DNA from: a virus
Virus record (IMG/VR): IMGVR_UViG_3300028196_000029
Span: 1-39,821 of that record
Direction: 5' to 3' (one strand)
Length of the DNA stretch: 39,821 bases
The notes under the pieces were generated by a model. It searched no databases, was not told the origin of the DNA, and was given only the letters and a program-made list of their open reading frames with translations. Both the position numbers and the translations under genes were made by a program. Shown here piece after piece: positions 3,452 to 39,821 of this stretch. Each line of letters begins with the position of its first letter. Positions within the stretch are counted from its first letter, which is position 1.

Positions 3452-3771
3452 TGCACAACATCAATTAATCTATCTTGCAATAATTTTTCTTTGTGCTGTT
3501 TGCCGTAAAGTTTATCATGTGCGTAAACTAACTTTTTAATTTTAAGACTTTGCCAAAAACTAAAAGGTATATCTTCTATATTAATATCGTTTATAGTGAT
3601 CTTTCTAAAGTTCACACATATATTATAATTATGAGGTTTCTCTATAATTAAAATGGTGGCAGAACTCAGATATAAATAAGGAATATATTTAGTGTCATAA
3701 CGCACAGCATCAATATCTTTTAAACCTGCGACTATTTCCTCATAGACACTTTTAACTTCTTGCTTATCCAT
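3442..3771 (-). CDS. Hypothetical protein, 109 aa
   Basis: Not recognised. A mixed alpha/beta soluble protein that starts on the stop of the holin candidate (TAATG at 3771) and overlaps the methyltransferase by 10 bases. This tight packing supports it as a real cistron. I see no signal peptide, membrane segment or catalytic motif. Confidence 0.75.
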   Translation of the reverse strand: MDKQEVKSVYEEIVAGLKDIDAVRYDTKYIPYLYLSSATILIIEKPHNYNICVNFRKITINDINIEDIPFSFWQSLKIKKLVYAHDKLYGKQHKEKLLQDRLIDVVQCR

Positions 3772-4277
3772 TATTTAACACTACGTTTGAATGCAATCAA
3801 TTTGCTTAACAAAGCATATCCACCTATCAAGTTTATACATGCTATAATTAGAATCGTTTGAATAAACCACGGCAAATCAGATAATATATTAACACCGCCT
3901 AAAACGACTGATTGGGCTTGCGGGACGAAGCAAGCTATTACTAATGCTAGTAATCCTATGCGCACAATATCATCTGAATAACGCCTTTTATTAAGTCTTC
4001 TGATTTCTCGATCTTGCTTCAGATCAGCATCTATATTTTTTATATCTAAGTCAGCATATGCTTGAATTTCTGCTGTATGTGCCTGTGTTTCTGCAAGTTT
4101 TTGCTCGACTTTTGCACGCATAATATCTGATTCTTGCACTTGAGCATCTGAATAATTTTTCTTAATTTTGCTATAAGTATCGTCATCAATTGCTTTAAAT
4201 TTATGCTTTAAATAAGCTACACCTTGATCGAATAAGAAAGGTGATATTAATTTAAATATGCCTGATAAGATTCCCAT
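3771..4277 (-). CDS. Putative holin, coiled coil plus two C-terminal membrane segments
   Basis: A 168-aa protein with an amphipathic N-terminus (MGILSGIFKLISPFLF), a charged helical stretch at about 25-100, and two hydrophobic segments at about 106-127 and 136-157, ending in a basic tail (KRSVK). This layout is similar to phage and GTA holins of the 3TM type (PF11351), which permeabilise the inner membrane at lysis. GAGGG precedes the ATG. It lies downstream of the tail spike gene. The family match is by layout only, and a structural membrane protein is possible. Confidence 0.55.
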   Translation of the reverse strand: MGILSGIFKLISPFLFDQGVAYLKHKFKAIDDDTYSKIKKNYSDAQVQESDIMRAKVEQKLAETQAHTAEIQAYADLDIKNIDADLKQDREIRRLNKRRYSDDIVRIGLLALVIACFVPQAQSVVLGGVNILSDLPWFIQTILIIACINLIGGYALLSKLIAFKRSVK

Positions 4278-7929: not shown

Positions 7930-8367
7930 TTAATAATCGTTATTAATCTGCAAAGTAAATCCATGCTGCAATTTACACTTAATTAACTGATCTTTGAACT
8001 CGTCAAAAGTAACATTACTTGCTGCCACAGCGTCTAAATTGTTAAGTATGATATGCTCTCTGCCGACAGCTATGCATCCTTCCACCTGGAAGGACCAATT
8101 AGCTACATGAATTAATATGGCACTACGTCCTGGCACATCTAAAACTTCATAAACGTCTTTGTGTCTGTTGCCTGAAAATGGCAATACTTTATATTTACCA
8201 GATGGAATGCTGCTAACATTGACTTTATTATCTAGATATGGACGTTCAATAGTTGCACATTGCCAGCCATTTGGCAGCTTTAAAGTGCCTAGCGTACAGC
8301 CTTTAGCCTTATCTAATTTGGTTTGCACATGCTTAAATCTGTGCAGGTAAACTTCTTGCTGACCCAT
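7930..8367 (-). CDS. DUF5675-like protein, lysis candidate
   Basis: A 145-aa protein. TLGTLKLPNGWQCATIERPY followed by IPSGKYKV, then YEVLDVPGRSAILIHVANW and GCIAVG, matches the pattern I associate with the DUF5675 family, often found near phage lysis genes. The fold resembles compact beta domains such as L,D-transpeptidase-like proteins, but no Cys-containing catalytic motif of that enzyme is evident. It is the first cistron of the operon that includes the spike and the putative holin, which makes a cell-wall role plausible but unproven. ACGGATG overlaps the ATG region, so the Shine-Dalgarno is very close to the start. Confidence 0.7.
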   Translation of the reverse strand: MGQQEVYLHRFKHVQTKLDKAKGCTLGTLKLPNGWQCATIERPYLDNKVNVSSIPSGKYKVLPFSGNRHKDVYEVLDVPGRSAILIHVANWSFQVEGCIAVGREHIILNNLDAVAASNVTFDEFKDQLIKCKLQHGFTLQINNDY

Positions 8368-13675: not shown

Positions 13676-13720
13676 TGGTAGCGGGGATTGGATTCGAACC
13701 AATGACCTTCGGGTTATGAG
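13676..13720 (-). other. attP: attP core: 3' half of an initiator tRNA (tRNA-fMet) gene
   Basis: Read on the minus strand, the 45 bases give an anticodon loop CTCATAA (anticodon CAT), then CCCG, variable loop AGGTC, a 5-bp T stem (ATTGG/CCAAT) around TTCGAAT, the acceptor strand CCCCGCT, discriminator A and an encoded CCA. ACCCGAAGGTC after the loop is characteristic of bacterial initiator tRNA. The D arm, the 5' half and the GGG that would pair with CCC are absent, so this is not a functional tRNA; it is the segment shared with the host target. The integrase gene starts 62 bases away. Confidence 0.88.
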
Positions 13721-13781
13721 TTTGCGTGTTTTATGCATTTAAACTAGATTAATATTATCTATAATGTTATAAATTAGCTAT

Positions 13782-14735
13782 ATGTTCAATAATATAGTTA
13801 ATTATGCTTATCTCAACTCTTTAATTATATTTTATTTTTTCGCAAAATGTAAATCTTTTTTAATGTTAATTAATAATTTATTTCATTTGTTTGTCGCATC
13901 ACACAAAAATTCTTTAGCGTTCAGCACTTTACAGACGTATGCGTCATGTTATCGCAAGCTAAATGTCATTGGCAATATGCATGTTAATGAGATTAATACA
14001 ATGCAATTGCAAACAATTCTAAACGAACAAAAAAATCTATCTACAAAAACAATTAATAATTTAATTAGTTTTACGCAAAGTTTGTTTAAATTTGCTGTGA
14101 ATATGCAGTTAATTAAAGAATCACCAGCTGCTGGACTTGTACGCTGCAAACCCAACAAAAAACAGATTGAATGTTTAACTGCTGAAAATTCAATCAAGCT
14201 TATTAATTATTTAATTAAACAAGAAAAATTAATTGGGTATTTTTATGCTATAGCATTCAACACAGGTTTAAGAACAAGTGAATTATATGCTCTGCGTTGG
14301 CAAGATATAAACGTAGCACAAAAAAAAATAACTATAGAAGCTGCAATTGTGCGTGGTATGCGTAAATGCACAAAAACTAATCACATTAGATATATAGATG
14401 TAAATGACGCTTGCATTAAATATTTATTAAGCTTATATGCAATATCAAGCAAACATACATACATCTTTAGCAACGATAATTATTCGTTCAATTGCAATAA
14501 TGCTAAACGAAGGAATGCGATGTGGTACAAAGCACTGAAAATATTAAACATACCTAAAATTAAACCATCAGCTACACGGCACACGTACGCATCTATAGCT
14601 TTATCGGAAGGTGCAAGGCCAGCTTGGGTAGCACAACAACTAGGACATGCCTCTATTAACACAACTTACAAATTTTATGCAAAGTGGATAAACTGTTCAG
14701 AAAACAGTAAATTTGCTAACTTAATTAATTTATAA
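13782..14735 (+). CDS. int: Tyrosine site-specific recombinase (integrase)
   Basis: A 317-aa phage integrase. A SAM-like core-binding domain spans about residues 34-120 and the catalytic domain 130-317: Arg164 in NTGLRTSELYALRW, Arg266 in SATRHTYAS, His289 in QQLGHASINTT and the nucleophile Tyr299. The first residue of the usual HxxR box is Ser263 rather than His or Lys, which is unusual. The first 27 residues look hydrophobic and non-conserved, so an ATG at 13863 (290 aa) may be the true start; neither has a good Shine-Dalgarno. It recombines the adjacent attP with the host tRNA-fMet gene. It faces opposite to the replication operon. Confidence 0.92.
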   Translation: MFNNIVNYAYLNSLIIFYFFAKCKSFLMLINNLFHLFVASHKNSLAFSTLQTYASCYRKLNVIGNMHVNEINTMQLQTILNEQKNLSTKTINNLISFTQSLFKFAVNMQLIKESPAAGLVRCKPNKKQIECLTAENSIKLINYLIKQEKLIGYFYAIAFNTGLRTSELYALRWQDINVAQKKITIEAAIVRGMRKCTKTNHIRYIDVNDACIKYLLSLYAISSKHTYIFSNDNYSFNCNNAKRRNAMWYKALKILNIPKIKPSATRHTYASIALSEGARPAWVAQQLGHASINTTYKFYAKWINCSENSKFANLINL

Positions 14736-17747: not shown

Positions 17748-19061
17748 ATGAAAAAAATAATAATAGCAATATCATTAGTAGCATTAGTAGGCTGTAAAAG
17801 TGGCGGTAGTGGCAATAATAACGCTAAATATCTATCAGCAAATACTATCAATGCTGAAAAATTAGCTCTTACAACATCTACTAGCTTTAAATCATTATCT
17901 ACAGGGTCTAGCAATGAAACTAACGATAGGCTGGTAAAAATAGACGCACAAGGCATAGCTTCAGCGGTATTTAATCAAGAGGTATCTGTTAATGCTGTAG
18001 ATGCAGGTAAACAAGTAGATGATTTTATCATCATTGCTGGTGATTTTAAAAACAAGTTGCAACCAGCACAAGAAACCACAGTAAGATTACGCACATTTAG
18101 CACATCATCTGGCGTAAGCAATAATGCTAATATAGATGTTAACGAGTGTACCGCTATTGCTGTGCCTAAAAATTCTGATACTAATAATCCTGTATGTTTA
18201 GCTAACGGTGCAGCGGTAACTGCTCTAGCTACTTATGAAAATGCTGGTTTAACTTATTATGCATTTTTTGAAATGGATAATAACGGCATAAGTAATTTAA
18301 AAGTTTGGGATGGTGCAGATGAGATTGTGAATGTTTATACCATACAAAAAATTTATAATGGCAATACACCAATCATGGATTTTACACAATTAACAGTAGC
18401 AAGTAATAATATTGCTTTACAATTTACAGAGGGCTGTTGTGATAAAAAAGTTGTTGTTGGCAATAAGAATGACGGTTTTAATGTTCTAGATGCTACCCGT
18501 GGTGCGTTGTTTAGTGGCACTCAAGCTATAATATTTAATAGTAGCGATGATTATAAGCTATATAATGTAGCAACTAATGCTTTATCTAGCATTACAGTAG
18601 ATGTTAGCTGTAATAGTTTTGACACTTTCTATCAAAGAAATTTTTATTTGTCAGATATAGCAGTAAGTACATATGGTGCAATCTATTATTTAGCATCTCA
18701 ATCTAACAATGATGCACTGTGCAAATTTACTAATAATGCGATTACTAAAGTTACAGAGTATACATACAATAAGTTATTAGCAGTTGGCGATATTGCATAT
18801 GTCTTAGGCAAAGATACAGAAAATAACAATTTTTTGCATAAAATAAATTTAATCGCTGATGAGTATATAGACAACAATGTACTAGAGGATTTAGCTTTTG
18901 CGAGCATTAGCAACATGGCATTAACAAGCGACAATTTAATAAATATTTCTGGCACAAACTCTAGCGGACAGTTGCAGACTAGTACATTTAACGCTGAAAC
19001 TTTGCAAATAACTAGCTCGGTTACAGATACAAAAATTATTTCACCTGTGGCAATTAACTAA
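17748..19061 (+). CDS. Phage-encoded lipoprotein, 437 aa, beta-propeller-like
   Basis: A lipoprotein signal peptide (MKKIIIAISLVALVGC) ends in the lipobox LVGC with Cys16 as the lipidation site; the following KSGGSG has no Asp at +2, favouring outer-membrane sorting. The mature 420 residues are Asn/Ser/Thr-rich short beta strands with recurring turns (GDIAYVLGKD, AIYYLASQSN), suggesting a propeller or beta-repeat fold. It is the last gene of the plus-strand accessory operon and overlaps the stop of the tail fibre gene on the other strand. Large for phage exclusion lipoproteins; surface change of the lysogen is inferred. Confidence 0.85.
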   Translation: MKKIIIAISLVALVGCKSGGSGNNNAKYLSANTINAEKLALTTSTSFKSLSTGSSNETNDRLVKIDAQGIASAVFNQEVSVNAVDAGKQVDDFIIIAGDFKNKLQPAQETTVRLRTFSTSSGVSNNANIDVNECTAIAVPKNSDTNNPVCLANGAAVTALATYENAGLTYYAFFEMDNNGISNLKVWDGADEIVNVYTIQKIYNGNTPIMDFTQLTVASNNIALQFTEGCCDKKVVVGNKNDGFNVLDATRGALFSGTQAIIFNSSDDYKLYNVATNALSSITVDVSCNSFDTFYQRNFYLSDIAVSTYGAIYYLASQSNNDALCKFTNNAITKVTEYTYNKLLAVGDIAYVLGKDTENNNFLHKINLIADEYIDNNVLEDLAFASISNMALTSDNLINISGTNSSGQLQTSTFNAETLQITSSVTDTKIISPVAIN

Positions 19062-29123: not shown

Positions 29124-30146
29124 TTATATGCAATCTTTGATTAAATAACCCGCTTTCATGTTCGGGAAGCTATAGCCATAAAAAGATTTAAATACAGCTA
29201 AACCTGCTTTAGGGTCTACTGGATCAGTTGCATACCAAACCATTTTTGGCTGTCCTTTTAATTCTAATGAGTATCCCATACTTAAAGAACTAGTGTCTTG
29301 TCGATAATCTGATATGTATATAATAATATCATTGCCGTACAAATTACGAGGAGTTGCACCCGTGCTTTCACGCACAGTGCGTTCAGTTATAAAGACATTT
29401 TTAAAACCAAAATTAGCAGCAAACACTTCTTTAGTTACATCACTGCCGAATGTCACAACAGGTTGATTATTCCCAAGGCCTAGTCCATAACAATGTCTTT
29501 TTAATTTGTCGCTGCTTTGCATTGCTTGCCAAACATCGTCATGCATTACAATGTTTAAGTTTTCAGTTGTACCAACAAGTTGTTTAATTTTGTTTTTAGC
29601 TAATTTAATTTCTTTTACAGGGTCGCAATCAGCACTTTCAGTAAATTGGTCATTGCCAGTTAAAGAATGCATATTGCCCTCTGAATATACATCTGTTGGA
29701 GTATTAGATGTAGATACACCTTTTTCTGTAACAAGCCCTCTAAGATGTTGCTCTACTTTTAAATCCATAGCTTTGTCATATTCACGGTTCATCACTGAGT
29801 ATGAACGCAAAATATTTTCTAATTTACCATTGCTAGCCTTCCATTGCTCGTAAGCTTCTTCATGTGAAATTTCAGCACTATGTTTGCTTAACACATAACT
29901 AACTTCTTCATCTTGCTCGTGGGAGAGTCTAATGCGTGCAGAATCTTGCGACATGCTCAAATCTCTTACTACATTATCTCCAGCTGCTTGTATTTCAAAA
30001 GTACCTTTTATCTGAGGAACAATAATATTTGTAAACAATTTATCGTATAAAAAGCCTTCTTGCTTGCTTTGCAAGTGTATACGTGCAGTTTGTTCCTTCT
30101 CTTTTATGTTAATGTTGGTTTTAAAGTCGTCTTGGTAAAGTGCCAT
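29124..30146 (-). CDS. Major capsid protein
   Basis: A 340-aa protein following decoration protein and protease/scaffold, the classical order. It has a helical N-terminal arm (INIKEKEQTARIHLQSKQEG), a long spine helix region around 95-130 (EAYEQWKASNGKLENILRSY) and beta-rich P/A domains, consistent with an HK97-fold shell protein. GGAA precedes the ATG. Fold assignment rests on position and size. Confidence 0.85.
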   Translation of the reverse strand: MALYQDDFKTNINIKEKEQTARIHLQSKQEGFLYDKLFTNIIVPQIKGTFEIQAAGDNVVRDLSMSQDSARIRLSHEQDEEVSYVLSKHSAEISHEEAYEQWKASNGKLENILRSYSVMNREYDKAMDLKVEQHLRGLVTEKGVSTSNTPTDVYSEGNMHSLTGNDQFTESADCDPVKEIKLAKNKIKQLVGTTENLNIVMHDDVWQAMQSSDKLKRHCYGLGLGNNQPVVTFGSDVTKEVFAANFGFKNVFITERTVRESTGATPRNLYGNDIIIYISDYRQDTSSLSMGYSLELKGQPKMVWYATDPVDPKAGLAVFKSFYGYSFPNMKAGYLIKDCI

Positions 30147-30164: not shown

Positions 30165-30554
30165 TTATAAACAATTGAGCAGTACAGCTATTCTTTCTTG
30201 CCCTTGGGTGTGCGTTGCATAGCAAGTACCAAAAACTTTGTCATTATCGCCAGCTGCTACTAAGCCATTTGCACCAGCTGTTAATTTAGTTCCAGCACTT
30301 ATACTTGCTGTGGCTGCATCAACAACGCAACTAACAACTGCTGTAGTGCGGTATACAGATAAATCAGTTCCTTGTTCAAAATTCAAGGGTGTAAATTCAG
30401 CAATTCCTAAAATATTATCTGAACCTGCTGTTGCTAGCCCTACAATTACTTTGCCTGAGTCATCGCTACTAATAAATTTGACAGGTCTACGGCCTATAAC
30501 AGTTCCATCGCTAACGCAAGTGTCGGCAAAAACTTTACTTAAGATATCTTTCAT
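30165..30554 (-). CDS. Head decoration protein candidate
   Basis: A 129-aa beta-rich protein between protease and major capsid. RRPVKFISSDDSGKVIVGLA, AGTKLTAGANGLVAAG and the end QERIAVLLNCL resemble DUF2190-type and lambda D-like capsid-stabilising proteins. AGGA precedes the ATG. Confidence 0.75.
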   Translation of the reverse strand: MKDILSKVFADTCVSDGTVIGRRPVKFISSDDSGKVIVGLATAGSDNILGIAEFTPLNFEQGTDLSVYRTTAVVSCVVDAATASISAGTKLTAGANGLVAAGDNDKVFGTCYATHTQGQERIAVLLNCL

Positions 30555-30562
30555 AGTTATTC

Positions 30563-31582
30563 CTATTTGTTAGTTAATTGTTTTATTTGTTCTAAGTGCT
30601 GATTAAGAGCTTCTGAAGGCTCTATTTCATCCTTAGGTAAATTTTTAGCGTCAACTGCATCACCAATGACACTTTTACTCGCAAACGCTACAACTTGTTT
30701 TTTGCAAAGAGTAATACAATTATTAAATGCCTCTTCTGTTGGAGCAGACAAACAAATATTTACGGCTTGTTCGTCAACAATTTGTTCTTTGTGTAAAATT
30801 TCTTTGCGTTGTGCAATTACCTTTTCTTGAGATAATTCTGCAACTTGCTTTTCTGCTGCTTCTAATTTATTAGACAACTCTACTTTGATAGCTTCTAGCT
30901 TTTCATTTTTAGCAGATAATGCTACTACTTGTTTATCTGCTTTTTCTAATTTAGCAGATAGTTTTACTTGTTCTGCTTCTACTGTTTCTAACTTAGCAGA
31001 TAGTTTTACTATTTCTGATTTTTCTTCAGGCATACGTTGCTCCGTTTGTTGTGAAAAAATAACTCTTTTAGCGTCTTGCAGCCCTTGGTCGCTGCTGGCC
31101 ACTGCTGATAGTTGGAATTGGCTCATTACTTTATCTTTAGCTGCTGGAAAGTTAGTTAAACTGATTGCTGATAAATCTAGTTGATTACTAGTACAAGAGC
31201 CATCAATGCTAAAGTGTGTATATGTACCGTCTTGTGCAGTCTTTTTGCCAAGCTCGTTTAATTGCATATTGGCAATCAAGGCTTTAGATGTAGCACCGTC
31301 AATTTCTATTTCTTTACATTCTAAGCTAACACAATCGCCAAGTCGTGGTGTGTCGTCACGCTTAGAATGGCCTATGATTAAAGGGATAAAAGAGTTGTTT
31401 TTTTCAGGGTCATAATTAGCTACACAAGCGTCTATAGCTTCTGATGTGATAGTAGCAGTGCCTCCAGAACCCTCATGAGTTCCAGCATAGCATACTACGT
31501 ATGGTATAATGTCTTGTTGCTCACTAGTTTCTTTAACTGAACTAGTAAAGCATATATGTTGTTTATTATGCACGCCTGTCAA
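30563..31582 (-). CDS. Mu I-like capsid protease fused to scaffold
   Basis: A 339-aa protein. The first ~170 residues contain IPLIIGHSKRDDTPRLGDCV, then NELGKKTAQDGTYTHFSIDG, the pattern of Mu gpI-type prohead serine proteases. Residues about 185-260 are a heptad coiled coil with repeated LSAKLE and LSNKLEAAEKQVAEL, the scaffold part. The start is not ATG: TTG at 31582 or GTG at 31573, with no strong Shine-Dalgarno, after a 190-base leader that could control it. It matures the prohead and moulds the capsid encoded next. Confidence 0.85.
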   Translation of the reverse strand: MTGVHNKQHICFTSSVKETSEQQDIIPYVVCYAGTHEGSGGTATITSEAIDACVANYDPEKNNSFIPLIIGHSKRDDTPRLGDCVSLECKEIEIDGATSKALIANMQLNELGKKTAQDGTYTHFSIDGSCTSNQLDLSAISLTNFPAAKDKVMSQFQLSAVASSDQGLQDAKRVIFSQQTEQRMPEEKSEIVKLSAKLETVEAEQVKLSAKLEKADKQVVALSAKNEKLEAIKVELSNKLEAAEKQVAELSQEKVIAQRKEILHKEQIVDEQAVNICLSAPTEEAFNNCITLCKKQVVAFASKSVIGDAVDAKNLPKDEIEPSEALNQHLEQIKQLTNK

Positions 31583-31655
31583 ATTCTGCTGTCTAACTTA
31601 ATAAAGCCAAAAATACAAGGTTGTTGCTCTTGTTTTTTTTTGACACGTCAGCAAA

Positions 31656-31762
31656 ACGTGATAGATGCAATTCTAAAGCTGCAAGCAAACAATAATTATT
31701 TACTAATGCTGAAAGTTGTAAACGTAATAGAACCTACAACTTCACAATTGCATCTATTACGT
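31656..31762 (-). promoter_or_regulatory. Structured leader of the capsid operon with competing pairings
   Basis: The transcript segment from 31762-31746 can pair with 31672-31656 (16 of 17) or with 31731-31722 (10 of 10). A third stem, GTTGTA/TACAAC (31740-31735 / 31720-31715), encloses the second partner. The two pairings exclude each other, as in attenuators and riboswitches. No known riboswitch class was recognised. The mismatch of the long pairing would be a G-U pair on the plus-strand RNA, so a plus-strand product is not excluded. Confidence 0.55.
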
Positions 31763-31780
31763 ATTACCTCAGCACCGATA

Positions 31781-31809
31781 AACATACATAAATTACTGCT
31801 CAATGTCAA
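31781..31809 (-). promoter_or_regulatory. Strong promoter of the capsid operon
   Basis: Minus strand: perfect -35 TTGACA (31809-31804), 17-base spacer, -10 TATGTT (31786-31781), start expected near 31774. The metallophosphoesterase stop is at 31817, so the promoter sits directly behind the upstream gene and starts head and tail transcription. Confidence 0.75.
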
Positions 31810-31816
31810 GTATTTG

Positions 31817-32671
31817 TTAAATATTTTTAGCCTTTAAAATATTAAATTTATTTTTATCACTACAAGAAATAAGTTTTAAAGTGATATTGTCTTTGTAAGA
31901 CAGTTCAATAGATGTTATTTCGTTATTTTTATATACTCCGCAGCCTATATTGTAATATTTGTCATTTAATTGTGGCTGATGTGTATGACCAATGATTGTG
32001 TGCAAATTGTTGCTAGCAGTCCATGACATCATAATATTATCAATTTTATTTTGCTTAAGTTTAGACTTTGCGGGTGTTGGCCATCCCCATTTGAGCCCTG
32101 TTAATTTTTGAATTGGAGTCCATAACCATTTTACAAAAAATTTAGGTAGTGCGGGGTAGCAATAATTAAGGCCGTCCGCTTGGTGTCCATGTATTACAAA
32201 CATCTTTGAACGAAGTTGTGTTTGATTGCAGTAAAATTTTAAAAGTATAGAATTTGTTACTTTTACATCACTTAGCCCTAAAGCTTCTAAAAGTTTCTTT
32301 AGCTGTTCTGGCTCATGATTGCCTTTATTGTAATATAATGCAGAACTATCCGCATATCTCTGTAAGATTTTAATTATCTCTTGTCGTATAGAGTCATGCA
32401 GACAATGATCTATAATATCATCTATATCAGATTCCCAGCCTTCGAAAATATCACCGTTTAATATGATTGTTTGTATATTTTTCTCTAAGCAATATTGTAA
32501 GCAATTTAAAATAGAAATGTCGTTTGCATCGTCTGCATCGTTACCGCTGCCGAAATGCAGGTCTGAAAGCAACATTGCACTGTATTCATCACGTATTTTT
32601 ACAACACAAGTATTACTAGCTAACGTCTGATTTAAAGCTCTTTTAGCTATTTTTGTGTTTGTTAAAAACAT
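31817..32671 (-). CDS. Calcineurin-like metallophosphoesterase
   Basis: A 284-aa enzyme with the full metal-binding set: SDLHFG (D37, H39), NGDIFE (72-77), KGNHE (116-120), HGH (161-163) and GHTHQP (228-233). HGHQAD and GHTHQP with PTPAKSK between them resemble LpxH-like UDP-diacylglucosamine pyrophosphatases, which act on lipid A precursors, but substrate cannot be read from sequence. The last gene before the capsid promoter. Possible roles are envelope modification or nucleotide signal degradation. Confidence 0.88.
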   Translation of the reverse strand: MFLTNTKIAKRALNQTLASNTCVVKIRDEYSAMLLSDLHFGSGNDADDANDISILNCLQYCLEKNIQTIILNGDIFEGWESDIDDIIDHCLHDSIRQEIIKILQRYADSSALYYNKGNHEPEQLKKLLEALGLSDVKVTNSILLKFYCNQTQLRSKMFVIHGHQADGLNYCYPALPKFFVKWLWTPIQKLTGLKWGWPTPAKSKLKQNKIDNIMMSWTASNNLHTIIGHTHQPQLNDKYYNIGCGVYKNNEITSIELSYKDNITLKLISCSDKNKFNILKAKNI

Positions 32672-32676
32672 AATGA

Positions 32677-33183
32677 TTACATGCCTTTTTTAGCGTTATT
32701 AAAATGCTCCCAAAACTCAACAAAATCATTTTTTAACAAGTGATTAAATTGTTCTTGGTAGCGTTCAAGCTCTTCTTGCTGAGAAGCATTTAAACTTATG
32801 CTAGCTTTTAAATCCGTAAAATATTTTTGCGTTTGCTGATCTTGCCACATCTGTAATCCCAACACGATCGCACAAGCCCCCAGCAGCCATTTGTGAAAGT
32901 AATTTTTACTGACATAATTTCTTTCTAATTCTAAAATAGCCTTTTCATTTTTGCTAACTTTTATAACTGTGTTTGAATGCTCTTTAGTTACATTTGCTAC
33001 AGCAATTGAAAGCTGTTTAATATCTAATGAATTAGTTGTTAATTGTTGTGTTACATTGTCAGCAATTTCAGTATATTTTTCTTCCCGTTTAGCCCCTTGC
33101 TCTTCGACTTTCTTGCCTAAGTCTTCAATTTGTTTAGATAAATGTTCAATTTGTACAGCATTTACATCAGAATTGCTAGACAT
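32677..33183 (-). CDS. Coiled-coil membrane protein, 168 aa
   Basis: The start is the ATG at 33183, preceded by AGGAG inside the end of the upstream gene. Residues about 10-95 form a long coiled coil (IEHLSKQIEDLGKKVEEQG), then one membrane segment near 100-115 (WLLGACAIVLGLQMW), then a helical C-terminal part. The layout is similar to XhlA-like or spanin-type lysis accessories, but no match is certain. It overlaps the YiiX-like peptidase gene by eight bases. Confidence 0.7.
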   Translation of the reverse strand: MSSNSDVNAVQIEHLSKQIEDLGKKVEEQGAKREEKYTEIADNVTQQLTTNSLDIKQLSIAVANVTKEHSNTVIKVSKNEKAILELERNYVSKNYFHKWLLGACAIVLGLQMWQDQQTQKYFTDLKASISLNASQQEELERYQEQFNHLLKNDFVEFWEHFNNAKKGM

Positions 33184-33712
33184 GATTAGCTCCTGCATAA
33201 GAGATTAAACTAGTGTAAACTTGTTGAGGTGTAGGATTAACCGGTATTTTTACAGGATCATGCGTTAATGATTGATAATCAGTAAACAGTTTACTGATTA
33301 ATTCTGAGCAATAAAAGGCATTATTGCGTTGCTTTATTTTTTTACAAACATGAGAAAAAACACCGCACAAATCATACTTTGTATTATTATATCTAAATAT
33401 AAATGTAACTAAATTTTCCGCAGTAATACCACAATTTTGTAGGGCTAAAACCTGATGACGTTTAGTATTATCTAATTTGCGCAACTTAACTCCTCGTGTA
33501 ACTGTAGCGTCAAAAATTAAAGGTGTGTTTGCCCTGCCATGTGTGAGGTTTGATAGACGTTGATATACGTCTGCTTTCTTAATCTCGCTTAATGTATTAT
33601 TATCAATGTATATTCCTACGTGATCCCATTGACTACATGTGTACAATCTAATGATGGCAGACGCTATATTCCACCACTGCTTATTCTGAACAAATACAAT
33701 TTTTAAATTCAT
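33176..33712 (-). CDS. YiiX-like permuted papain-fold hydrolase
   Basis: A 178-aa protein. QWDHVGIYI places a His at residue 31 and FYCSELISKLF a Cys at 135, the order His-before-Cys of circularly permuted NlpC/P60 enzymes (YiiX/DUF830, peptidase C92 type). Such enzymes cleave cell-wall peptides or lipid-linked substrates. The product has no signal peptide, so periplasmic access would need a holin-like partner; the adjacent coiled-coil membrane protein is a candidate. It is one of two lysis candidates, with the DUF5675-like gene at 7930. Confidence 0.8.
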   Translation of the reverse strand: MNLKIVFVQNKQWWNIASAIIRLYTCSQWDHVGIYIDNNTLSEIKKADVYQRLSNLTHGRANTPLIFDATVTRGVKLRKLDNTKRHQVLALQNCGITAENLVTFIFRYNNTKYDLCGVFSHVCKKIKQRNNAFYCSELISKLFTDYQSLTHDPVKIPVNPTPQQVYTSLISYAGANHV

Positions 33713-34095
33713 TTTAATGCACTTATAAAAGCTATAACAATTTTAACAAAGTCTTTTAAACCGTAAGCTATATAGCATTTTGCGTTTTTTAAATTTTCAT
33801 GCTCATTGAAAAAAGTTGTTTGCTCGTCTGTCAGTTTTGAACGTTTAGATCTTTTAATTTCTACAAATAACGTGTACATCACATCATTTTTTACAAACTG
33901 TAAACGGTAATCTGGATCGCCACGCTGCACGCCCTTTTTCTTTAGTGTAACAGCTGTTCTGATGTGCCTTTTTTCGCCTGCTGGTGAATATGTATAGTAT
34001 GTTAAGCCTTTGTCTTTTAATTCTCTGCTGTAAGCTCTTAAATAGCTACCAATCTGCTTATGTATAATGTCCTCTTTGGGCAACACAGCAGGCAT
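33709..34095 (-). CDS. VRR-NUC domain nuclease, 128 aa
   Basis: With the ATG at 34095 the protein has GVQRGDPDYRL (residues 55-65; catalytic Asp in GDPD) and LFVEIKRSK (E79, K81), then KLTDEQ (Q92), the signature of VRR-NUC single-domain nucleases, common in phages and thought to act on branched DNA. The start is one base after the previous stop; a longer frame to 34152 would overlap the previous gene. It overlaps the YiiX-like gene by four bases. Confidence 0.85.
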   Translation of the reverse strand: MPAVLPKEDIIHKQIGSYLRAYSRELKDKGLTYYTYSPAGEKRHIRTAVTLKKKGVQRGDPDYRLQFVKNDVMYTLFVEIKRSKRSKLTDEQTTFFNEHENLKNAKCYIAYGLKDFVKIVIAFISALK

Positions 34096-34096
34096 C

Positions 34097-34699
34097 TTAA
34101 AACCCCAACCCAATGCTAACTGTATGCAGCTTCCAGTCGTAAGTATCAACACGTCTGCCTGTAAAAGCTTTATATGTTGTAGCTAGATATATTTTTTCTG
34201 ACAAAAACAATTTTAATTTAGCACTGAAATAATTGCTTACAGCAGTATGTATATAGCTATATTTATGCTGTAAATTAAAAGTTTTAAAAGTACAACTTGG
34301 CCTTAAAAGAAGCTCTTTTCCTAAAATGTCATCTCGAACACCCACAGATACACTACATTTTTTATAACGCAACCCACCGCTAACAGTTTGCTCAAGTTTA
34401 TGTGATTGCGTACTATGCTGCATAACTCTTGCAAAGCCTAATAAACTAAAAATTTGATTGAAGTCTATACTTTTGTTTAGTTCTGCCAATTCATAAGCAT
34501 ATTTAGAAGTTTTCACGCTTTGAAAATTAAAATGCGGAAAATCTGCATTAATATTATACGTATCAATGCCGTTGTACTTGCTCAAATTAGCATCTATGCC
34601 AGCTGCATATACTTTGTTGATAGATTGAGATATGTAAACAGCAAACAATGCAATAATACTCATTGTTACTATTATTAATAAGGATCTGAAAGGGTACAT
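34097..34699 (-). CDS. Outer-membrane beta-barrel-like protein
   Basis: A 200-aa protein with an N-terminal hydrophobic segment (LLIIVTMSIIALFAVYISQS) followed by AAG, like a signal peptide, then alternating amphipathic strands (GGLRYKKCSVSVGVRD, KYSYIHTAVSNYFSAKLKLF) and the terminal WKLHTVSIGLGF. A final Phe after an alternating strand is the hallmark of Gram-negative outer-membrane barrels. A role in surface exclusion of other phages is plausible. It is in the late operon, directly before the nuclease gene. Confidence 0.7.
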   Translation of the reverse strand: MYPFRSLLIIVTMSIIALFAVYISQSINKVYAAGIDANLSKYNGIDTYNINADFPHFNFQSVKTSKYAYELAELNKSIDFNQIFSLLGFARVMQHSTQSHKLEQTVSGGLRYKKCSVSVGVRDDILGKELLLRPSCTFKTFNLQHKYSYIHTAVSNYFSAKLKLFLSEKIYLATTYKAFTGRRVDTYDWKLHTVSIGLGF

Positions 34700-34702
34700 A
34701 AC

Positions 34703-34858
34703 TTATGGAAGCCTCTTCAATTGACAATATACTGCTATAGTTGTGCATATAAAAATGTAAAAAATAGGCAACAGAACTAACCACCACGACCAATCAATAT
34801 AATTAGTTAACTTTAACGCTATGAACAATAAAGCTAATCCCAGTATAAAATTTTTCAT
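34703..34858 (-). CDS. Small membrane protein, 51 aa
   Basis: Starts at the ATG 34858, one base after the SSB stop. Two hydrophobic segments (MKNFILGLALLFIALKL, then WWLVLLPIFYIFICTTIAVY) and a short basic end. Role unknown; the size would fit a small holin or inner-membrane helper. Confidence 0.7.
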   Translation of the reverse strand: MKNFILGLALLFIALKLTNYIDWSWWLVLLPIFYIFICTTIAVYCQLKRLP

Positions 34859-34859
34859 T

Positions 34860-35282
34860 TTAAAAAGGCACATCAGCATTGTATCTGTCATCTTTAGTTG
34901 CATACTCATTTACTGTATTAGCATTTTGCTGAGTGCTTTGTTCATTTTTGCTATCTAGCATTTGCATATCACTAGCAATTATGTCTGTAGAATAACGTTT
35001 TATGCCGTCTTGCTCCCAAGATCTAGTACGCAATGAACCTTCTATGTAAACTTTAGAACCTTTCTTTAAATACTCACCTGATATTTCTGCTAAACGATTA
35101 AAAAACACCACTCTATGCCATTCAGTTTTATCTTGTTGTTGTCCTGTTTCTTTGTCTTTCCAACTTTCAGAAGTAGCAATACTAACATTAGTTACTGCAC
35201 CACCAGATGGCATATGACGTACTTCTGGATCTTGCCCTAGATTACCAATTATAATTACTTTGTTTATACCTTTGCTAGCCAT
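34860..35282 (-). CDS. ssb: Single-stranded DNA-binding protein
   Basis: A 140-aa OB-fold [22 protein letters not shown] at the start, then [30 protein letters not shown] and [19 protein letters not shown] disordered Gln/Asn linker (110-130) leads to the acidic tip NADVPF, which corresponds to the partner-binding tail DDIPF of host SSBs. It is encoded in the late operon, far from the Sak4-like ATPase and Gp157-like protein with which it probably works. Confidence 0.95.
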
Positions 35283-35580
35283 TGAATCCCACCATTATTA
35301 ACCCTAAAATAACTAAAAAGATTGTTATGTAATTCAGCAAACGTGTTGCTGAATTAAAATATTTAATTTCTAGATAAATTGCTTCTTCAGTAGTTGCTAA
35401 TGATAATATAAGAGTGATTATTGCTGTTATAAAAACCCAGCTAGTAAAGTTATAATTAAATGCTAATGAAAGTGCTAATCCTGCCACACTAATTATTAAA
35501 TTAGTTGTGTCTAAAAATGCACGGTTAGCCCTAGCGGTACTATTTAATTCTTGAGTGTAATGTTCATGTATACTTGACAT
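35275..35580 (-). CDS. Membrane protein with about three segments, 101 aa
   Basis: Hydrophobic segments at about 25-44, 47-64 and 80-98, N-terminal charged part ([19 protein letters not shown]). A holin-like size and topology, but no defining motif. Overlaps the ssb start by eight bases and starts at the stop of the 113-aa gene. Confidence 0.7.
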
Positions 35581-35938: not shown

Positions 35939-38026
35939 TTACAAACTAATACTTTTCAACGCCTCTGGTGTTACATTGCCTAAGCCTAAAGGCTGGCCGT
36001 TGCTTGCCCTGCTTAAAGGCTTATTTTTATTACCTACATACTGTATGCGTATAAAACTTTTGCAGTTATGGTGTAGTGGTGGCTTGTTGCTACTAGCTGC
36101 ATACTCTTGTTTAGTAAATACTCTCCCTTGCAATTCTTGGCATATCTGCGACTTAGGATCACCATTCATATACTCGTAACTCTCAATACGTGCATCTACT
36201 GCTGGGTCTTTTACAATAGCTGCTCTAGTTTGATTAACTACTTTAGCTGCTACCATTGCAGCTGCTAGTTTAATGCTTGCTGAACCGTCCTGTTCTTGCC
36301 CTGATAATTTGCCATTGATAAACTCATCACTAACTTTCATAATTTTAGCTTTAGCTGCGGTTGGGCTATCAATATTTATATCTTCTAACCCATTAAATAT
36401 TGCGTCATGATAAATGTTTATAAGTTTGTTTAGTTCTCGCTGAGTCATTGAGCTAATTACTTTTGTCAAGTCTGCTTGTGCAAATTCAACTTTTTCAGCT
36501 GCAAACTTAACTGATTTTTTTAAGTCTCCAGCCGTCAAACCAGAACCATCTAGCGTGATGTCTGTAGTTTGTGTAACAACATCACTAATATACTGCTTAA
36601 TAGCTTTGTAGAGCTTCGGCTTATTGCCTATAGTTGCATCTAATGCCTTACCGCTATCCCATTGCTTATGTACTTTTTTTATAAAAGTATCTTGATTGTC
36701 ATTAAAGTAATCTTGCACAATTGATATTATCTGTTGCTGTGCATTATCCATTAATTTTGACACAGGGTGCTTTTGTGCAAACTTTACAGCTTGCGATAGT
36801 TCTGCATTCTCTGGTTCTTGATTAGATGTTTTTTTAACTGTAGGTGTTTGCAATTGTGATATCAAAGATAGAGGCAAATTTAATTCTTTAGCTAACATCT
36901 CTCTGCCTTGATCGCTTTGAATGTCCAACAAATTATGTTCAGCTAAAAGCTTAATTTTATTAACATTTTCACTCGCATTGCTATCTTCAATTCCAGTAGT
37001 AATAATTGCTGGACAATCAATACCGCAATGATAATTAACGTAACGATTTAAAAACTGTTGCACTTGCTGATTAATGCTTTTACATAATCCTGATAAGCTG
37101 TTGTAAAAAATACCTGCCATGCTGTTTGCAAGTGCGTAACTACCTGTAATTTCTCCCATGCCGTTTAGCCATGTGAGATTGAACGCATCAGTTATTTTAT
37201 TATCAATGTCTTTGCTAACCTGCAAAACTTCATTAAATGTGTGTGCGTTCGGTATACTTGTAATTTTAGTGCCAGCGCTCAAAGCAACTGCATTAGTATT
37301 GCCCGACAAAACACTTGCAAGTTGAGTTTCAATTTCTTTTTGATCTAGATCTAAAGATTTTATAGATTCCATGAAATCTTTAAAATTAGTTATCTCTACA
37401 GTAAGTTGTCCTGAAGCTCTAGATGTAAGTTTACTAAGCAACGATAACATAGGCATGCCAATATGATTGATTGGTGCAAACAAAGGCCTTAACATGCTTT
37501 CACCGTAGACATTATTGCCTTTTTTAGAGCGAGTTATCAGCAACATAGCACTATCTTTGTTAACTAATTCAATTTCTTTATTCGCTCCATTTATTTTTGC
37601 ATTGATTAGCTGATTATTTACAACTGTGTAACTGTTGATTTTTTGCGGATGAATAAAGTTTACAGCCTCTAAATATTTAGATGATGGATTAAAATTACAT
37701 TCAAACAAAGAATTGCCATACGTCAAACACGAAAGGATTTCAGACTGCAACTCTTTAAAATTAAAGTTGCTGTTGTTGAATAGAGTCTTATCTAAAAGCT
37801 CTTTTGCTTTTACTTGCTTTAGATCTTCTTCATCAATTTCACAACTAGTTTCTGCCGAAGTAACTAAGTCTGCATATGTTTTTAAGCACTGTGAAACTTT
37901 CGGATAAACTGAACAAATATTAGCCCAATATCTTATCTGCGACCAATTGCCATAGCTGGGGTTGCTATCGTTAATGATAGATTCCCATTCAGAGCTTATT
38001 TCTAATTTTTTAGCGTTAAATGCCAC
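35939..38026 (-). CDS. Portal protein fused to MuF-like head morphogenesis domain
   Basis: A 695-aa protein starting with GTG. Residues 1 to about 430 resemble the DUF935/Mu gp29 portal family (ILSCLTYGNSLFECNF, MLRPLFAPINHIGMPM, then ALSAGTKITSIPNAHTF). The remainder is helical and ends with the MuF/SPP1 gp7 signature: Cys629 in SQICQELQGRVF, then PPLHHNCKSF (649-658). In Mu these are two adjacent genes (gp29, gp30); here one frame covers both. It forms the packaging ring at the capsid vertex, with the MuF part inside the head. Confidence 0.88.
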   Translation of the reverse strand: MAFNAKKLEISSEWESIINDSNPSYGNWSQIRYWANICSVYPKVSQCLKTYADLVTSAETSCEIDEEDLKQVKAKELLDKTLFNNSNFNFKELQSEILSCLTYGNSLFECNFNPSSKYLEAVNFIHPQKINSYTVVNNQLINAKINGANKEIELVNKDSAMLLITRSKKGNNVYGESMLRPLFAPINHIGMPMLSLLSKLTSRASGQLTVEITNFKDFMESIKSLDLDQKEIETQLASVLSGNTNAVALSAGTKITSIPNAHTFNEVLQVSKDIDNKITDAFNLTWLNGMGEITGSYALANSMAGIFYNSLSGLCKSINQQVQQFLNRYVNYHCGIDCPAIITTGIEDSNASENVNKIKLLAEHNLLDIQSDQGREMLAKELNLPLSLISQLQTPTVKKTSNQEPENAELSQAVKFAQKHPVSKLMDNAQQQIISIVQDYFNDNQDTFIKKVHKQWDSGKALDATIGNKPKLYKAIKQYISDVVTQTTDITLDGSGLTAGDLKKSVKFAAEKVEFAQADLTKVISSMTQRELNKLINIYHDAIFNGLEDINIDSPTAAKAKIMKVSDEFINGKLSGQEQDGSASIKLAAAMVAAKVVNQTRAAIVKDPAVDARIESYEYMNGDPKSQICQELQGRVFTKQEYAASSNKPPLHHNCKSFIRIQYVGNKNKPLSRASNGQPLGLGNVTPEALKSISL

Positions 38027-38973: not shown

Positions 38974-39821
38974 TTAGAAAAAATCATGTGGTGTTATTTC
39001 TTTTCGTGGAATTTTTAAGCTTAGATTTGCTTTAAATTGTGGCTTTTTAAGACTATCTAAATGATACTTTAAACCATGCACTAATGCATCTAGCCTGTCG
39101 GGTGATTTCTGACCTTTAGCTCCCGTGTATGTAGTCATCTGTCGTTCTAACAGCATATAATTATCTTGTTTGCCGACATGATGAACAGTTTTATTATTGT
39201 AGCCTATGATTACCTGACTAAATCTGGCCATTTTATCTTTTACTGCTCTAACAGCTTCTAGTTTAAAAGCACCAGCGAAGCGCCCGTGAGATTCTAATGT
39301 GCTTTTAATCGCAAGTTCTATTACTTTACCGCCTTGATTGTCTTCGTACAGAATGCAATTTGCATCATATTTGTCATATAAGCTAATTATTTTTTGTACC
39401 CATTTTTCTGGTGCTGCTTTCATGCTTGCATCTTCAAGTAAATATATAGCCTTAGTATCTCTAGCTATAACAATTATGCCTGTCTCGTCTGCAGTCTCGC
39501 TACTGCTAACTGCTGGATCTACACTAATGATAATCTCACTCATATCTTTCAAGTTAGGAACATCACCAATAGGCATTCTTAACTCGTCAATCTCTGCTTG
39601 AGTAATTAGTGCATTTTCTGCATCTGACTTGCAATGCCCTTCCCAGATATGCAGGTATTTTGCATAGTTATTTTGCTTATCTGCAAGCATATCATGATAA
39701 TTTTCTGTATCTTTAAAAAAAGGGTTATTTTTGTATGTAGTGTGCTTGTATATCAAGCGTTCACTGCTATCGCTATCAATAGCAAATAGCTTGTGAATAT
39801 AATCATGTTCATGCAATGGGT
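38974..39821 (-). CDS. terL: Terminase large subunit, C-terminal part (continuation of 1-682)
   Basis: Nuclease half of the packaging motor. The frame is open from the window end through the terminal repeat and matches the 1-682 part. EIIISVDPAVSSSETADETG supplies the first catalytic Asp, ANCILYEDNQGGKVIE a second acidic site, and DRLDALVHGLKYH the third, as in RNase H-like terminase nucleases. The stop is at 38974-38976. Bases 39654-39821 duplicate 1-168. Confidence 0.95.
   Translation of the reverse strand, partial: PLHEHDYIHKLFAIDSDSSERLIYKHTTYKNNPFFKDTENYHDMLADKQNNYAKYLHIWEGHCKSDAENALITQAEIDELRMPIGDVPNLKDMSEIIISVDPAVSSSETADETGIIVIARDTKAIYLLEDASMKAAPEKWVQKIISLYDKYDANCILYEDNQGGKVIELAIKSTLESHGRFAGAFKLEAVRAVKDKMARFSQVIIGYNNKTVHHVGKQDNYMLLERQMTTYTGAKGQKSPDRLDALVHGLKYHLDSLKKPQFKANLSLKIPRKEITPHDFF
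39654..39821. repeat. Terminal redundancy, right copy
   Basis: Same 168 bases as 1-168 except C at 39771 instead of A, which changes one terminase residue (Asp here, Tyr in the left copy). Confidence 0.95.

Follow-up and report, generated by a model that had tools for sequence, protein, structure and literature searches.

A proposed mosaic insert among the head genes of a temperate phage encodes a C92 permuted papain-like enzyme that may assist lysis at the membrane

Between the portal and capsid genes of a temperate phage lies a block of closely packed accessory genes, which we tentatively interpret as an insert of mosaic character within the late (head) operon. In this reading, to which we give somewhat less than an even chance, one of its products, a C92 permuted papain-like enzyme, would act with the coiled-coil protein encoded beside it as a membrane-directed helper of lysis. 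The evidence comes from the arrangement of the block, the family and catalytic residues of C92, and the genes that surround C92 in other phages.

Results

The window analyzed here comprises 39,821 bases and makes up one virus record. A stretch of 168 bases within the large terminase gene is present at both ends, with a single mismatch (1-168 and 39654-39821), and the phage is therefore circular and complete at ~39.65 kb; its G+C content is 34%. An integrase gene (13782-14735) is adjoined by a sequence that reproduces an initiator-type tRNA-Met gene over its 3' half (13677-13722) and is likely to be attP, and the phage is therefore temperate. The exact 43-nt attP core had no match among the genomes of the collection and a 34-nt degenerate core matched unrelated phyla, so that assignment of a host from the attP tRNA was rejected. 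The head genes are Mu-like and comprise a portal (35939-38026, minus strand), which is a single gene of 695 aa with a C-terminal Mu-F-like domain fused to it, a protease/scaffold protein and a major capsid protein. Searches of IMG/VR revealed no close relatives of C92, the portal, the phosphoesterase or the capsid protein, and tblastn against INPHARED (E<=1e-3) gave no match to C92, the phosphoesterase or the portal. The major capsid protein had one distant match among the named phages of INPHARED (22.9% identity), and the portal was absent from 395 genomes of one phylum. This is a complete temperate phage without a close relative in the collections searched. Elsewhere in the genome, a gene that runs opposite to the tail genes (17748-19061, plus strand) encodes a 437-aa predicted lipoprotein (LVALVGC near its start) for which no convincing family was found, and which is a candidate moron.

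The genes of the block and the features that border it on the capsid side are as follows.

34860..35282, minus strand: SSB of 140 aa, which forms the upstream edge of the block (Pfam SSB, 7.6e-38; phrog_44, 1.7e-55)
34703..34858, minus strand: 51-aa protein predicted to span the membrane twice (two hydrophobic spans; phrog_1374, 1e-12 for a longer ORF)
34097..34699, minus strand: 200-aa orphan, probably exported (hydrophobic N terminus, residues 6-24; ends ...VSIGLGF)
33709..34095, minus strand: VRR-NUC-like nuclease, 128 aa (GDPDY ... VEIK ... Q; phrog_824, 8e-14; phrog_5702, 1.9e-5)
33176..33712, minus strand: C92 permuted papain-like (YaeF/YiiX) enzyme, 178 aa (PF05708; phrog_1128, 6.9e-17)
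32677..33183, minus strand: coiled-coil protein, 168 aa (heptad periodicity over residues 5-95, p 0.005; short central hydrophobic stretch)
31817..32671, minus strand: calcineurin-like metallophosphoesterase, 284 aa (PF00149, 2.4e-8)
31653..31809, minus strand: promoter-like site and long hairpin (TTGACA-17-TATGTT at 31809-31781; 29-nt inverted repeat)
30563-31582: protease/scaffold gene
30165-30554: decoration gene
29124-30146: major capsid gene

From SSB to the phosphoesterase, successive minus-strand genes are spaced by +1, +3, +1, -4, -8 and +5 nt. This bears out an earlier sequence-only reading, which described the genes as overlapping or abutting, and their co-transcription is likely. 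That reading placed the cargo at 32677-34858, an interval whose other cargo genes are real, but which leaves out the phosphoesterase named in its own title. Codon usage resembles that of the phage core genes for every gene of the block except the 51-aa membrane ORF, while the other reading frames are unlike it. The block is bordered by the portal gene on one side and the protease/scaffold, decoration and major capsid genes on the other, and the only long gap (234 nt) separates it from the capsid genes. A capsid promoter had been proposed as its boundary; a promoter-like site does lie in this gap, but such sites are no commoner in the block region than in shuffled sequences. The accompanying hairpin region (31580-31800; arms of 29 nt) has a folding z-score of -3.4 and gave only chance-level matches to Rfam, and the promoter and hairpin together may possibly represent a leader RNA, a small RNA or an antitermination site.

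The 178-aa protein matched PF05708 (Peptidase_C92) with 29.2 bits against a cut-off of 27 and contains the expected catalytic residues in permuted order (His31, Asp68, Tyr113, Cys135). His31, Tyr113 and Cys135 are kept in all of the phage C92 proteins aligned, and Asp68 occupies the third polar position, at which three of the phage proteins (L109-L111) have Glu instead. Its AlphaFold model is of low confidence (pLDDT 42), and the protein is without a membrane segment of its own. Thus the earlier description of this protein as YiiX-like holds, and its assignment by family match and residues as a C92 permuted papain-like enzyme is firm. Counterparts that agree with it in family, catalytic residues and size class have been called permuted papain-like amidases in other phages (Alteromonas V22 ORF28, Geobacillus virus E3 gp50 and Marinitoga MPV1_47; phrog_1128). 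Those genes are often late or near lysis genes, and several adjoin a gene for a small coiled-coil membrane protein, whereas C92 of the present phage is located between portal and capsid genes, has different neighbours, and is longer in the loop that follows the catalytic His. In five of the records read (L105, L121, L122, L124 and L125), the phage C92 gene is annotated as "enoyl-CoA hydratase/carnithine racemase-like", which is the name of phrog_1128; the label looks like a propagated misannotation.

For none of the phage C92 proteins did our search yield activity data. Permuted NlpC/P60 enzymes possess a hydrophobic pocket and a catalytic triad plus Tyr, and YiiX bound a fatty acid (PMC3142127); Tox-Act1, another permuted NlpC/P60 enzyme, is a phospholipase (PMC12994826), and LnsA is required for lipoprotein N-acylation (PMC7387801). 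These precedents make a lipid or lipoprotein a likelier substrate for C92 than peptidoglycan, and such a substrate, along with the permuted Cys/His core, is what C92 would share with Tox-Act1 and LnsA in our working model. However, Tox-Act1 is a secreted T6SS effector and LnsA a host lipoprotein-acylation protein, whereas the activity of phage C92 is only predicted.

The gene for the coiled-coil protein overlaps that of C92 by 8 nt. No family in Pfam or PHROGs matched its product, which had been described as a coiled-coil membrane protein. The heptad periodicity agrees with the first part of this description, but the hydrophobic stretch is short and below the hydropathy threshold used. Because C92 has no membrane segment and the two genes overlap, we infer that the coiled-coil partner may hold C92 at the inner membrane. 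In phage-like locus L099, in Geobacillus virus E3 and in Microcystis phage MaeS, the gene directly after C92 likewise encodes a small coiled-coil protein, in these cases with one membrane span. BLASTP detected no relationship between the coiled-coil protein of the window and its L099 counterpart, and the coiled-coil proteins that adjoin C92 in different phages are not detectably related.

The metallophosphoesterase exceeded the PF00149 cut-off (35.1 bits against 21.5) and retains all of the metal-ligand motifs (DxH, GD, GNH, HGH and GHTH), with D37, H39, D74, N118, H119, H161, H163, H229 and H231 as the invariant residues. It shares with LpxH (UDP-2,3-diacylglucosamine diphosphatase) the calcineurin-like phosphoesterase fold family and an insertion near the HGH motif. 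The corresponding motif of LpxH is GNRD, where the phage protein has GNHE. The NCBIfam LpxH model gave 23.4 bits against a cut-off of 134, so that identity with LpxH was rejected and the LpxH-like label is at best remote. Its nearest relatives among those found are proteins encoded in bacterial genomes, with DD and HGHQxD as shared motifs, and among PHROGs it matched phrog_7339 ("DNA repair exonuclease", 1.7e-5) and the SbcD-like phrog_100 (0.003). The titles and abstracts of the literature contained nothing on point about metallophosphoesterases in lysis modules.

The nuclease contains a PD-(D/E)XK catalytic motif, in which GDPDY...LFVEIKRSK aligns with GYPDL...LRIEIKK of the VRR-NUC structure 4qbl. 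Its translation more likely begins at the ATG at 34095, one base past the stop codon of the gene for the 200-aa protein, than at the listed GTG at 34152. Motif and PHROG matches, including that to phrog_5702 (Holliday junction resolvase), favour the proposed VRR-NUC assignment, but the match to 4qbl is weak (E 0.41) and Pfam gave no VRR-NUC match; "VRR-NUC-like" is a reasonable description. Phage VRR-NUC proteins (4qbl; the Enc34 replication module, PMC5686142) resemble it in the GxPD...(V/I)EIK motif, in the small single domain and in the presence of SSB in the same phage, whereas the nuclease here is found among head genes instead of in a replication module. The ORF for the 51-aa protein starts with an ATG one base past the SSB stop codon, and its codon score is not coding-like.

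The 200-aa protein, which had been read as an outer-membrane barrel, is probably exported, as predicted from a signal-peptide-like N terminus in which the hydrophobic segment is followed by a VYA-A site. The protein also ends in F, but the barrel itself was not demonstrated: strand alternation did not reach significance in the mature part (p 0.16) or in the C-terminal half (p 0.06-0.08), and the AlphaFold model is of low confidence (pLDDT 38). Searches gave no family and no phage match for this protein.

No holin, endolysin or spanin was recognised in the block, and the neighbouring gene at 35275-35580 matched a holin at 0.064 only. Outside the block, a holin-like gene (3771-4277) matched phrog_2524 weakly, and a gene at 7930-8367 (minus strand) encodes a DUF5675 protein. 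No endolysin or other muralytic domain was recognised among the phage proteins scanned. The DUF5675 protein is a candidate for the role of the missing lysin, which a tail protein could also play; nothing on point about DUF5675 function appeared in the titles and abstracts of the literature.

The surroundings of C92 were read in ~20 phage loci, and the phrog_1128 profile was searched against the 395 genomes of one phylum. The profile search returned a single phage-like locus (L071/L099), with the gene order C92, coiled-coil membrane protein, phosphoesterase. It was rejected as an instance of the same module, since its phosphoesterase belongs to another subfamily (18% identity) and its coiled-coil protein is unrelated by BLASTP. 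None of the ~20 C92-carrying loci contained the barrel candidate of the window or a phosphoesterase of the window's type, a nuclease was found once, on the opposite strand, and the block as a whole recurs in no phage or genome searched. The association is thus scattered and non-conserved, an outcome that the sequence-only reading had itself named as refuting its proposal.

C92 was located near lysis genes recognised by HMMs in 5 of ~14 phage groups, a raw count, so that any enrichment is a matter of judgement. L110 has an uninterrupted run of endolysin (phrog_465, 2.6e-57), holin (phrog_3427, 9e-35) and C92 genes, and in L109 endolysin-like and spanin-like genes precede C92; L111 is arranged alike, and both may be relatives of Alteromonas V22, in which a spanin-like gene is 0.8 kb from C92. 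In Geobacillus virus E3, C92 heads a row of genes in which a phrog_689 holin-like gene is followed by a holin and an endolysin; in Marinitoga phages a holin (phrog_608) is two genes ahead of C92. In MaeS, C92 adjoins a phrog_1625 gene, which we take to be bhlA-like, with a holin 1.6 kb further. Only weak lysis-gene matches were seen in ctfzr933 and L099, and phage NCTB was left out of the count because the "endolysin" near its C92 gene is a head maturation protease by PHROGs. C92 is located among tail and baseplate genes in Bacillus phages Grass and Eldridge, among tRNA genes in Streptomyces phages, and near terminase genes in Ibantik. C92 and a phosphoesterase are linked in the window, L099, Marinitoga phages and BillNye, in which an annotated "phosphoesterase" abuts C92. 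A conserved pair was rejected, since the subfamilies differ and the related phage Muntaha has no phosphoesterase beside C92.

Discussion

We propose that the block is a mosaic accessory insert, in which C92 and the coiled-coil protein form the only pair that plausibly works together. SSB and the nuclease would most likely be DNA-processing genes, and the exported protein and the phosphoesterase may be independent cargo. In the late phase of infection, the pair probably has acyl lipids or lipoproteins as its target: the cytoplasmic C92 enzyme, tethered to the inner membrane by the coiled-coil protein, would cleave acyl chains off phospholipids or lipoproteins. The envelope would thereby be weakened, which makes a role of C92 as a helper of lysis plausible. 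Consistent with this proposal are the tight packing of the genes, the family match and residues of C92, its recurrence beside lysis genes, the coiled-coil membrane proteins encoded directly after it in L099, E3 and MaeS, the lipid links of permuted NlpC/P60 enzymes, and the uniqueness of the block among the genomes searched. On the other hand, the candidate lysis region of this phage (3771-4277; 7930-8367) lies apart from the head operon that contains C92, the relatives of C92 in Grass, Eldridge and Streptomyces phages are not among lysis genes, and its coiled-coil neighbour has no detectable relationship to that of L099.

Alternatively, the genes might be devoted mainly to DNA metabolism, with SSB, the nuclease and an SbcD-like phosphoesterase processing replicating or packaged DNA near the portal and C92 as a passenger. 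The nuclease gene is the third from SSB, and the matches to phrog_7339 and phrog_100 point the same way, but the closest phosphoesterase relatives found are chromosomal and have no SbcC partner in their 3.5-kb loci, and the exported protein, C92 and the coiled-coil protein are left unexplained; we consider this account unlikely. A single envelope or lysis module, as the sequence-only reading suggested, would combine an outer-membrane barrel, C92 and its membrane partner on the inner side, and a phosphoesterase with lipid A precursors as its substrates. Likely co-transcription, the identical gene order in L099, and the presence of a phosphoesterase in the same Marinitoga cassette would fit it, and its C92 component draws support from lysis-gene neighbours in unrelated phages, a lipid-directed family (PMC3142127, PMC12994826) and a frequent coiled-coil neighbour. 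However, the ~20 loci share no such set, the L099 resemblance extends neither to the phosphoesterase subfamily nor to the coiled-coil protein, the phosphoesterase is not LpxH, the barrel is unproven, and SSB and the nuclease are DNA enzymes that do not fit, so that the module as a whole is improbable.

Prophage conversion and exclusion genes are well known (PMC11436027, PMC10883804), and the exported protein and C92 could alter the surface or lipoproteins of the lysogen and bar other phages. That the phage is temperate and one protein probably exported would agree with such cargo, but the genes are inside the head operon, and promoter-like sites ahead of the block are at chance level. A head operon is normally silent in the lysogen, and we regard this explanation as rather unlikely. 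Finally, the block could be a chance assembly of unrelated single-gene morons, the C92 and coiled-coil genes included. The neighbours of C92 do differ widely among phages and the adjoining coiled-coil proteins are not detectably related, but the proximity of C92 to lysis genes in several groups and the recurrence of coiled-coil membrane proteins directly after it argue against chance, for which we see the slimmest prospect of all.

In a broader form of the proposed helper role, phage C92 enzymes would be recurrent, non-muralytic lysis helpers that are recruited to the inner membrane by a coiled-coil partner and act on acyl lipids or lipoproteins, and this phage, for which no muralytic gene was recognised, would depend on its C92; we offer this generalization as a speculation that is rather unlikely to hold in full. 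Phage lysis is usually described in terms of holin, endolysin and spanin only. If phage C92 indeed acts on membrane lipids in lysis, a lipid-directed step would be added to this process, and a function would be provided for a widespread phage gene that is now labelled "enoyl-CoA hydratase-like", "peptidase" or "endolysin". While the block as a whole represents ordinary phage mosaicism, C92 and its coiled-coil neighbour point to a testable phage function of which we found no description.
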